Assembly (NCBI RefSeq): GCF_000333595.1
Contig: NZ_BADK01000091.1
Span: 1 to 60,922 of the forward strand
Source of the DNA: Azospirillum sp. B506
GTDB taxonomy: Bacteria > Pseudomonadota > Alphaproteobacteria > Azospirillales > Azospirillaceae
Length of the DNA stretch: 60,922 nucleotides
Direction: 5' to 3'
Positions 27,740-30,876 of the stretch are shown in pieces. Below the pieces are notes generated by a model, which was not told the origin of the DNA, made no database searches, and saw only the letters and a program-made list of their open reading frames with translations. The position numbers and the translations under genes are program-made. Within the stretch, counting starts at the first letter, position 1; every line of letters begins with the position of its first letter.

Positions 27740-28540
27740 ATGAGCGATCATCAAATTCCACCGCAGGACGGTGACGAGTCCGCGGAGCCGACCTCCCCAT
27801 CAGCCGAACAGGATGCTGCCGATCACGAGGATGCTGGCGGGCCGCTGGCGTCCAAGCGTCAACCCTGCGCCATCAGCGGCAAGCGCCGGCCGAAGCGCGA
27901 CCTGATCGCACTGGACGCATTGCGCCCCAGCCTGGCCGACCGCATCCGCCACGACCACCCGCATCTGGAGCCGGACGCGCAGATCAGCCGGCAGGAACTG
28001 GCGCGCTACCGCTCGCTCTATGTCGCCGAGCTGCTGAAGGAGGAGCATGGCGAACTCAGCGAGCTGGACCGCGAGGTCGCCGAAAGCCTCGCCCGGCACG
28101 AGACGCTGGCCGAGAACCCGGAGGAGGAATATGACGACCACCGCACACTGGGCGAACGGCTGTCGGACGGGCTGGCCAGCTTCGGCGGCAGTTGGGCCTT
28201 CCTGATCTCCTTCGCTTTCTTCCTCGGCGTGTGGATGCTCATCAACATCATCGAAGGCGATGCCAGGGCCTTCGATCCCTATCCCTTCATCCTGCTGAAC
28301 CTGCTGCTGTCCTGCCTGGCCGCCATCCAGGCGCCGGTCATCATGATGAGCCAGAAGCGGCAGGAGGCGAAGGACCGGCTGCGCTCGGAAAACGACTATC
28401 GCGTCAACCTGAAGGCCGAACTGGAAATCCGGCACCTGCACGAGAAGATGGACTATCTCATCCAGCGCCAGTGGCAGCGGCTGACCGAGATTCAACAGCT
28501 GCAGCTGGAAATCATGCAGGAAAAGCGCCTGCGCAGATAG
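27740..28540 (+). CDS. DUF1003 membrane protein
   Basis: 266 residues. A charged N-terminal domain (1-140; includes a DALRPSLADRIRHDHPHLEPDAQISRQELARYR segment) precedes the DUF1003 core with two transmembrane helices (about 151-172, GSWAFLISFAFFLGVWMLI, and 183-203, PFILLNLLLSCLAAIQAPVIMM) and a conserved cytoplasmic coiled end (SQKRQEAKDRLRSENDYRVNLKAELEIRHLHEKMDYL). The family function is unknown. The ATG at 27740 has GGGAGGG seven bases upstream; frame extensions further upstream run through the pckG terminator. Confidence 0.88.
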   Translation: MSDHQIPPQDGDESAEPTSPSAEQDAADHEDAGGPLASKRQPCAISGKRRPKRDLIALDALRPSLADRIRHDHPHLEPDAQISRQELARYRSLYVAELLKEEHGELSELDREVAESLARHETLAENPEEEYDDHRTLGERLSDGLASFGGSWAFLISFAFFLGVWMLINIIEGDARAFDPYPFILLNLLLSCLAAIQAPVIMMSQKRQEAKDRLRSENDYRVNLKAELEIRHLHEKMDYLIQRQWQRLTEIQQLQLEIMQEKRLRR

Positions 28541-28567: not shown

Positions 28568-30298
28568 TCAGCGCTTGCGGCGGCCATCCAGCTCAAGCAT
28601 GCCGCGCAGTGCGGCAATGGTCTTGCTGAGCGGCGTCGGCTCGCCGGCGGGCTTGCCGGGCTGGGCCTTCTCCGATGGAACATCCGGCGGCAGCACACCG
28701 GCCGGCTGCGCATTTTGCGGCCGCCCGGCGTCTGGCGCGGCCGATCCGCTGCGGGCCGGGCGCGGCTTGCCGGTACGGGGTTTCGGTTGGGACGGCAAGG
28801 GCGGGGACGGCGGCGGGTCCGGCTTCACCTCGTCCTCGATCAGCCCACGCAGGGCCTTCATCGCCTCTTCGATTTCGCGCTCCTGGGCGGAGCGGCGGCC
28901 GGCCGGCGCCGGTTCGGGATCCGGTTCAGCCGCTCTGGAAACGGCCGGCTCCGGCAACGGCTCGGGATCGTCCCAACCGCCGGTCGGATCCTCATCCTTA
29001 CGGTGAGCGGATTTGTCGGCCGGCTGGCCGGCGTTGCCCAATCCCTCGCGCGGTGGCGCGTCCTCCTCCTCCGGGTCGGTCGCCGCATCCTCGATCATCG
29101 AGCGCAGGGCAGCGAGGGTCCGGTCGAATCCCTCCTCGTCCTCCGGCGGCGTCGGGCGCTGGGCACGGCGTTCAGCGCGGTGCTGGTCGAAATCGAGCGG
29201 CTCGGCAGCCGGTGGCGGGACAGGAGTGGCCGTGCGGGAGACGGATCCCCGCTTTTCCGGGTCGCGGATGGCGAAGGACAGGATCTCCTCCTCCGACGGT
29301 TCCTCGCCGTCGGACTCGCCGGCATCGACGTCATCCTCCTGCCCTCCGGTCTCCGCCACCCAGCCGTCGTCCTCCTCGTCCGCCCAGTCGTCCTCGAAAT
29401 CCCTGCGCACCAGAACCTTGTGCGAGAAGACAGGCGGTTCGTTCCGGCCCGGCTCTTCGCCAGCAGGTTCATCGACGGATGGATGTTCGGCAAAGCTCGT
29501 GGTGTTGCGGGCATGGAAAGCCGGCGGACCTCCGTCGCGACCCTCTTCCCGTTCGTCGTCCGGATCGTCATCCGAGCCGTAGGCCTGCGCCAGCAGCTGG
29601 CGCATCGCCGTCAGCGTTTCGTCGCCATCGTCAGGGGCACCATCGTCCGGATCGCCGCCGTCCGGATCGCCCTCTTCGGGACCGCCATCTTCGGGACCGC
29701 CGATGCCACGGCTGTGCTCTCGGGTGGTGTCCGGTCGCCCATCGTTGGCGGGAGTCCTGGCATCGCTTGCAGGGGGCTCGTCATCCCACTCGTCATCCGG
29801 CGCGCCGCGACCGAGACGGGCCGCCATGTCGGCGAGCGAGACCGGCTCCCACAGCGGAGCGACCCCTTCATCCCCCGGACCATCGGCCACAAGGTCGGAG
29901 AGCGGAAGGTCCGACAGGGGCCTTGCGCGAACAGGAGCGGGGGAAGGGGGAGGGGGAGGTGCAGCGGCAGGCTCCCTGTCGGCCATCCTGTCCGGGGCAC
30001 CATCTCCTCGCAGCGAGGCCAGCAGTCCGTTCAGCGCCGCCAGCGGCGCATCGAAGGAAGGCCCGTCATCGCTGGCGGCCGGGCCGGCGACCTGCGGAAC
30101 CTCCAGGATCGGACGGCTTTCGATGTCGCGGGAGTCACAGCGCGAACAGCGGTAATGCGGCGCGATCGAGAGAACCGGGTAGTTGGGACCGAAGCGCCGC
30201 TCCAGCACGGCACGGGGCAACACGCCGCCATGCCCGCAGGCGCGGCAGCGCAGTTGCACATCGGCGTCGATGTCGCGGAGGAACAGCATACGGGCCAT
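28568..30298 (-). CDS. Acidic zinc-ribbon protein with five repeated helical motifs
   Basis: 576 residues, no family recognised. The N-terminus holds C18-x2-C21 and C51-x2-C54, a likely zinc ribbon (CRACGHGG ... CSRCDSRD). The rest is low complexity, Asp/Glu/Pro/Gly-rich and probably disordered, but it carries five similar short helices: 85-96 PLAALNGLLASL, 228-239 TLTAMRQLLAQA, 394-405 TLAALRSMIEDA, 479-490 AMKALRGLIEDE and 560-571 TIAALRGMLELD. Such repeated motifs in a flexible chain suggest multivalent binding to one partner (inference). No membrane segment or signal peptide. Convergent with the DUF1003 gene, 27 bp between stops. Confidence 0.75.
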   Translation of the reverse strand: MARMLFLRDIDADVQLRCRACGHGGVLPRAVLERRFGPNYPVLSIAPHYRCSRCDSRDIESRPILEVPQVAGPAASDDGPSFDAPLAALNGLLASLRGDGAPDRMADREPAAAPPPPPSPAPVRARPLSDLPLSDLVADGPGDEGVAPLWEPVSLADMAARLGRGAPDDEWDDEPPASDARTPANDGRPDTTREHSRGIGGPEDGGPEEGDPDGGDPDDGAPDDGDETLTAMRQLLAQAYGSDDDPDDEREEGRDGGPPAFHARNTTSFAEHPSVDEPAGEEPGRNEPPVFSHKVLVRRDFEDDWADEEDDGWVAETGGQEDDVDAGESDGEEPSEEEILSFAIRDPEKRGSVSRTATPVPPPAAEPLDFDQHRAERRAQRPTPPEDEEGFDRTLAALRSMIEDAATDPEEEDAPPREGLGNAGQPADKSAHRKDEDPTGGWDDPEPLPEPAVSRAAEPDPEPAPAGRRSAQEREIEEAMKALRGLIEDEVKPDPPPSPPLPSQPKPRTGKPRPARSGSAAPDAGRPQNAQPAGVLPPDVPSEKAQPGKPAGEPTPLSKTIAALRGMLELDGRRKR

Positions 30299-30471
30299 GC
30301 CGCACAGTATAGCGGCGGTGGCGCGGCTTTCCCATTCGTTTCAAGCCGCAATCCGTCGCCGCAGGCGGCGTACCGCAGCAATGACAGGATTGCCAGCCGG
30401 ATCGGCGGACAGGATAAGGGCGGCGGATGCCCGGTCGACCGGTGTCGAACCGGGCGTCGCCTGGGGGACGG

Positions 30472-30711
30472 TCACACCGCGCGGGTGACGGTCAGGCCCT
30501 GTTCGGACAGGCTGTCGAAGATGTCCTTGAACTTCCGCAGGTAACGGGTGCGGTAGGCGTCGAAATCGGCAGCGATGGCCGCCTCGGCATTCTGGGACTT
30601 CTTGAATTCGGACACGCGATGGGCATTTTCGGCGCGATACAGGGCGAAAGCGCCCTTCGTCACCAGATCGCTGCCGACCGGGTCTGCGTTGTTCGGTTTG
30701 TCGCTGTTCAT
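30472..30711 (-). CDS. Hypothetical 79-residue protein
   Basis: Not recognised. MNSDKPNNADPVGSDL, then a charged helical body with several aromatic residues (GAFALYRAENAHRVSEFKKSQNAEAAIAADFDAYRTRYLRKFKDIFDSLSEQGL). Composition is that of a real soluble protein (few Arg-Pro-Gly runs) and the plus-strand shadow is not. The ATG at 30711 is chosen; in-frame codons up to 30777 look unlike protein. Stands between the zinc-ribbon gene and the DUF2383 gene, all leftwards. Confidence 0.55.
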   Translation of the reverse strand: MNSDKPNNADPVGSDLVTKGAFALYRAENAHRVSEFKKSQNAEAAIAADFDAYRTRYLRKFKDIFDSLSEQGLTVTRAV

Positions 30712-30876
30712 CAATCCATGTCCAGATGGCCATGTCCAGGTGGAGTGGACATCCGGCCATCGGAGCCGGATGACCAACTGACGCTGCGATACAACCCCAT
30801 GGCCATATCAGGTCGTTGCAGCCACTGGAAAAAGCCTACGCCCGCTTTTCCACAGCTGCAATGTTGCGACGCACCA

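Follow-up and report, generated by a model that had tools for sequence, protein, structure and literature searches.

An Azospirillum zinc-ribbon protein with five spaced copies of a helical motif in a disordered acidic tail, a candidate multivalent hub

The gene and its zinc ribbon

We analyzed a 60,922-nucleotide stretch of the genome of Azospirillum sp. B506 (contig NZ_BADK01000091.1, positions 1 to 60,922; hereafter the window), in which one minus-strand gene (28568..30298; 576 amino acids plus stop) encodes a protein with an N-terminal zinc ribbon and, behind it, a disordered tail that carries five helical motifs. These coordinates agree with a first-pass annotation of this DNA, which was made from the sequence alone and left the strand unstated. 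All 45 genomes examined of the window's genus have a match to the gene, and the ratio of nonsynonymous to synonymous substitution rates (dN/dS) lies well below 1 in its frame. The plus strand likewise holds a long open antisense frame; we assigned the gene to the minus frame because of its conserved start, the promoter box ahead of it, and its dN/dS, evidence that was computed for the minus frame and not for the antisense one. In the genomes searched the protein is specific to the genus, and it is probably cytoplasmic. No annotated family matches the whole protein (no Pfam model better than an expect value [E] of 0.13, no NCBIfam model better than 1.3, and no PHROG or PADLOC model up to E 1), in agreement with the first-pass annotation, which had recognized none, and a literature search of partial coverage found no paper on this protein.

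The zinc ribbon, supported by alignment conservation and a structure model, spans residues 1-66 (30101..30298, minus strand), and its four cysteines (C18, C21, C51, and C54) are as originally listed. Among 18 sequences, that of the window included, 33 of 64 columns are invariant, and residues 1-64 modelled alone by AlphaFold are folded with a mean predicted local distance difference test score (pLDDT) of 90.5. A homologous C-x2-C...C-x2-C ribbon occurs in short uncharacterized alphaproteobacterial proteins (75-193 codons), which end within about 50 residues past the ribbon and carry no motif tail (11 loci read). Identity of the ribbon to two short ribbon proteins of other families is 45% and 34%, and a ribbon profile that includes these two matched short ribbon frames in 13 of the 37 family genomes that lie outside the genus (E ≤ 0.001; best 3.1e-25). 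Scattered short zinc-ribbon proteins related to this ribbon were noted at loci L168-L178, of which L176 lies in the window's own genome, and the three that were scanned have no Pfam or NCBIfam name. By sequence, the ribbon profile matched nothing significantly among solved structures (best E 0.13); its second match was the zinc finger of AgmX/GltJ of Myxococcus (7zok), a likeness of the ribbon alone and not significant (E 0.38).

Five related helical segments in the tail

Five 12-residue segments, at residues 85, 228, 394, 479, and 560 as first reported, follow the consensus F/L-x-x-T-L/I-A-A-L-R-x-M/L-L/V, with favored residues F/L at position -3, L/I at 1, A-A at 2-3, L at 4, R at 5, M/L at 7, and L/V at 8. 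On the minus strand, copy 1 (PSFDAPLAALNGLLASLRG) lies at 30005..30061, copy 2 (DDGDETLTAMRQLLAQAYG) at 29576..29632, copy 3 (EGFDRTLAALRSMIEDAAT) at 29078..29134, copy 4 (REIEEAMKALRGLIEDEVK) at 28823..28879, and copy 5 (TPLSKTIAALRGMLELDGR), near the C-terminus, at 28580..28636, each supported by cross-site profiles, a genome-wide motif model, and a helix in the structure model. Start-to-start gaps between the segments are 143, 166, 85, and 81 residues, and the linkers are 131, 154, 73, and 69 residues long; the separation of 74-166 residues in the first-pass annotation was therefore slightly off, while its description of the linkers as acidic and flexible stood (43.2% proline, glutamate, and aspartate [P+E+D], with a net charge of -53 over 387 residues).

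To establish the kinship of the segments, a profile was built from the orthologues of each site and searched in the window protein with its own site masked, alongside 500 shuffled tails for each profile. The best cross-hits of the profiles of sites 1-5 (7.8, 22.8, 14.9, 9.3, and 15.3 bits) were all higher than the best of the shuffled tails (2.9, 4.1, 3.4, 6.7, and 3.0 bits, respectively); above the shuffle limit, the profiles of sites 1-4 detected two other sites each and that of site 5 detected one. Sites 1 and 2 were scarcely detected by the profiles of other sites (at most 0.1 and -2.5 bits), so that what ties them to the rest is the detection of sites 3, 4, or 5 by the profiles of sites 1 and 2. 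A pooled motif model of 19 residues (42 rows from 10 sequences, picked by the motif regular expression and hence partly circular) matched five places in the 7.2-Mb genome at E < 0.001 (2.3e-6 to 7.8e-4), all in this gene, with the next match at 0.89; 150 of the 201 first-look candidates were scored in this search. When the copies of the window were excluded from the model, the same five sites kept ranks 1-5 (43.1, 38.0, 27.8, 25.1, and 9.9; next 1.5). The motif had no significant match by sequence among solved structures (best E 1.5).

AlphaFold, run on the 576 residues with 31 sequences, returned a confident ribbon and short helices at all five motifs (residues 83-97, 227-240, 390-406, 471-491, and 556-571), which bears out the earlier description of the motif as helical. 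Averaged over ten-residue blocks, pLDDT is about 59-84 at the motif helices, and 331 of the 576 residues fall under 50; given a predicted template modeling score (pTM) of 0.27 and mostly disorder outside the ribbon and helices, there was no sign of a single common fold. One further helix (370-379) was predicted in a stretch that is not conserved across the genus.

Beyond the ribbon and motifs, two more short islands are conserved in the alignment, namely PLWEPVSLADMAARL and EPSEEEILSFAIRDPEK. Island A (residues 145-162, GVAPLWEPVSLADMAARL; 29813..29866, minus strand) comes from the conserved-island list and has a short model helix at 155-162, while island B (residues 334-351, PSEEEILSFAIRDPEKRG; 29246..29299, minus strand), from the same list and from a comparison with a PopZ peptide described below, has one at 336-342. 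Copy 2 is the sole motif copy missing from this list. The two islands, together with the restriction to one genus and a conserved promoter box abutting the start codon, go beyond the first-pass annotation.

Distribution, copy number, and selection

The full gene was found in none of 37 genomes from 12 other genera of the family, five of which had ribbon-only matches in frames of 115-147 codons. Among the named genomes, 29 of 30 loci are labelled Azospirillum, and the remaining one, labelled Roseomonas genomospecies 6, is nested in the Azospirillum tree. When motif-model matches (E ≤ 0.05) were counted per genome, whichever gene holds them, all 44 genus genomes had three to six matches each, and four of the 37 other family genomes had one each; in a class sample of 289 genomes, several matches were found in two genus genomes and a single match in two others, one of the single matches lying in a frame that we take to resemble histidyl-tRNA synthetase. 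No genome outside the genus had more than one match in either set. One genus genome (G021) gave six motif-model matches versus five copies in the protein by regular expression.

Copies were counted in 31 sequences with a score threshold of 7.1, derived from 1980 shuffled tails of 33 sequences (highest shuffle 12.0). Five copies were found in 27 sequences, four in two, three in one (A. oleiclasticum, 388 amino acids), and six in one (A. halopraeferens, 489 amino acids), and the 784-residue orthologue of another genome has five copies, two of them near the threshold. The repeats on whose presence in orthologues the first-pass annotation had staked its reading are thus there, and of the two properties that it had proposed to follow by alignment, the number is mostly kept and the spacing varies (copy-start gaps of 64-208 residues across the 27 five-copy sequences). 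The odd copy numbers fall on long branches of the protein tree, in which placement is unsure and the root serves for drawing only. Because each copy in the five-copy sequences retains its own flanking signature between species, the copies are older than the split of these species and separately maintained, and do not stem from a recent expansion.

When the window sequence was compared with six near relatives, the ribbon, motifs, two islands, and linkers had dN/dS values of 0.07, 0.08, 0.07, and 0.41, and between one brasilense-clade sequence and seven others, the respective values were 0.03, 0.11, 0.02, and 0.48. From these values, constraint on the motifs and islands is similar to that on the folded domain in the window set and clearly stronger than that on the linkers in both sets.

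A multivalent hub and its alternatives

With several copies of a conserved motif in disordered linkers, the protein has the sequence features of a multivalent disordered scaffold; only a handful of bacterial scaffolds made of short motifs in disordered chains are known. Our preferred interpretation, to which we give about even credence, is a genus-specific multivalent hub in which the repeated helix docks on one putative partner (another protein or the protein itself) and the ribbon holds another. The first-pass annotation had proposed a scaffold or hub; the anatomy behind this proposal held, and such a protein, which would act through binding or condensation, most simply accounts for a motif that is under purifying selection and present in three to six copies between freely varying linkers. 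Mechanistically, each motif copy would fold into a short helix on docking into the same groove of the putative partner, weak single contacts would add up so that several partner copies are gathered along a single chain, other putative partners may be held by the ribbon and by the two islands that occur once each, and the acidic linkers would space the sites apart; here we infer helix formation on binding, the shared partner, and the additive affinity. As the motif is matched nowhere else in the genome below E 0.89, we expect the putative partner to offer a folded surface and not to be a second motif carrier, and the predominance of five copies with variable gaps is what would be seen if copy number counted for more than distance.

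Several observations weigh against the hub. The linker dN/dS (0.41 and 0.48) is uncertain, with values somewhat inflated by poor linker alignment. The helices are just partly amphipathic, so that the term needs care: the hydrophobic moment is striking at copy 4 alone, where 0.9% of permutations were as high, compared to 9%, 17%, 30%, and 30% at copies 3, 2, 1, and 5, respectively. Conservation is lowest at copy 2, some copies score near the limit of 7.1 and under the highest shuffle of 12.0 (e.g., copy 2 of L083 at 9.2), and two A. halopraeferens copies score barely above 12. Finally, the helix predictions are for single chains, and gene order yields no partner lead, as neighbors differ between clades.

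The main rival to the hub is self-association, in which the five helices would bind each other between chains to build a network or condensate and the ribbon would recruit clients; we regard it as possible, though a good deal less probable than the hub. A proline-acidic chain that carries three to six stickers suits such an assembly, and the absence of a better motif match elsewhere in the genome fits homotypic contacts. However, the predicted helices are short (the longest is 471-491) and form no long coiled coil, the conserved arginine and Ala-Ala face would suggest a specific docking surface, the strong negative charge of the linkers should oppose self-association, and the model gives no sign of inter-helix packing (pTM 0.27).

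We think it improbable that the protein belongs to the PopZ network, as a client or regulator of PopZ whose island B mimics the N-terminal PopZ peptide and whose ribbon acts like that of ZitP. In PopZ, a disordered chain rich in proline and acidic residues carries conserved short helical segments, and PopZ was found in 31 of 31 genus genomes searched. The present protein is similar in this architecture and in its proline- and acid-rich disordered linker (43.2% P+E+D versus 66.1% in residues 27-150 of the PopZ of the same genome), and its island B bears a partial resemblance to the N-terminal PopZ helix (PSMEEILASIRRIISE), confined to an EPSxEEIL core in which EPSEEEIL matches EPSMEEIL at 7 of 8 residues. 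A profile of this PopZ peptide scored 4.4 bits at island B in the window protein and 7.0 bits in L089, whereas the best of 930 shuffled tails reached 2.7, scores that are flattered since shuffling breaks up local acidic runs and that come from one distinct peptide, identical in 28 of the 30 loci from which it was read. On the motif copies too this profile scores weakly, with 6.6 bits at the final copy in L105 and 2.0-3.5 bits around copy 4 in several others. Against these points, the core is followed in island B by FAIRDP, its best conserved part, which has no PopZ counterpart, and the motif model reaches at most 2.8 bits on Azospirillum PopZ; with the PopZ profile touching the motifs only weakly, a PopZ origin of the motifs was rejected. 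Unlike PopZ, the protein has an N-terminal zinc ribbon, a barely similar motif, and no DUF2497 (PF10691), for which hmmscan gave no match in a listing to E 10 (the HMMER filters drop most matches above 0.1), and the genome has a separate PopZ, its single PF10691 match at E ≤ 0.001 lying on another contig.

A precedent for a ribbon that binds PopZ is that of ZitP, according to passages of PMC5182065. ZitP (Zn_ribbon_5, PF13719) is likewise alphaproteobacterial with an N-terminal four-cysteine zinc ribbon, but passages of the same paper place its cysteines at C5, C8, C28, and C31 and assign it a DUF3426 domain, whereas the cysteines here are spaced differently, hmmscan found neither PF13719 nor DUF3426 in this protein, and PF13719 is matched only once in the genome at E ≤ 1, by another gene. 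Membership in ZitP was rejected on these grounds. SpmX of Caulobacter, set beside this protein by description only, is a condensate former and an integral membrane protein for which passages of PMC8849385 describe no repeated motif. The protein resembles proline-acidic scaffolds in the style of PopZ and SpmX, yet it is neither PopZ nor ZitP, and the link to the PopZ network, attractive through island B and the ZitP precedent, is thin.

Similarly improbable is a regulator linked to nucleic acids, whose basic ribbon would bind DNA, RNA, or RNA polymerase and whose acidic tail would recruit or mimic nucleic acid. The ribbon has a net charge of +3 with several invariant arginines, and fold comparison returned chains of MCM, PolC, a peptide release factor, and the 70S ribosome, but the metallochaperone HypA came first in both lists, the similarity was weak (best Z 3.7; best Foldseek E 0.037), and no DNA-binding family was matched in Pfam or NCBIfam. 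The nearest solved shapes are generic ribbons, and a Z below 4 indicates little beyond the general ribbon shape. We give next to no credence to an ordinary low-complexity tail with segments alike by chance or drift. High GC and a P/D/E/G bias favor look-alike stretches, and the open antisense frame is a further point for this reading, but dN/dS is 4.5 to 5 times as high in the linkers as in the motifs, the shuffles and the genome-wide motif search argue against chance, and the gene is present in every genus genome examined.

A bolder extension of the hub, which we hold to be rather unlikely as a whole, is that the protein is an undescribed, genus-defining cell organizer of Azospirillum, that is, a zinc-anchored scaffold whose repeated AALR helix would gather many copies of one partner in a compartment of its own beside PopZ, with three to six sites tuned between species and a leaderless mRNA from a conserved abutting promoter. 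The gene itself, which has no annotated family, is of interest as a universal component of the examined genomes of an agricultural genus. The conserved motifs would mark binding sites against drifting linkers, making the putative partner searchable by bait, and natural variants with 3, 4, 5, and 6 sites allow study of valency versus function.

The promoter box and the gene neighborhood

A -10-like box, TATACT, lies 13 nt before the ATG (30306..30311, minus strand), and a -35-like element, TGGGAA, read by eye, lies 17 bp before it (30329..30334, minus strand). In 30 of 31 loci, a TATANT box (TATACT in 29 and TATAGT in one) begins 12-15 nt ahead of the ATG, with a spacer to the ATG of 6, 7, or 9 nt in 17, 10, and 3 loci, respectively. 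The sole locus without the box, L103, is also the sole one whose final 18 nt contain GGAG, GAGG, or AGGA, a Shine-Dalgarno-like run. The pattern TATANT-N5-8-ATG occurs only here in the window, both strands counted, and the 9-mer TGGGAAAGC was found within the 200 nt upstream of the gene at 16 of the 31 loci. From the abutting TATANT without a Shine-Dalgarno run, we predict a leaderless mRNA from the gene's own promoter that starts at or adjoining the ATG.

No CtrA box was found in the upstream stretches by the two patterns tried. A GANTC site lies at -42 in 12 of 31 loci (L089-L092, L094, L097-L100, L102, L104, and L107) and at -44 in L088; as the 12 loci are exactly 12 rows of one supported tree set, the site is not general, and its position just upstream of the promoter could allow cell-cycle control in that clade. 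As background, GANTC sites and leaderless starts in Caulobacter are treated in PMC4287350.

No constant co-directional partner gene was found across 30 loci. A small upstream gene (30472-30777, minus strand; about 80-100 amino acids, start uncertain) stands beside the gene in 13 of 30 loci, is conserved at 57-92%, and has no Pfam match at E 0.1. Downstream, a convergent four-gene cluster, presumably folC-accD-trpA-trpB, is found in about 19 of 30 loci. In the window, a plus-strand gene for a DUF1003 protein (27743-28537) is convergent with the zinc-ribbon gene and adjoins that of phosphoenolpyruvate carboxykinase.
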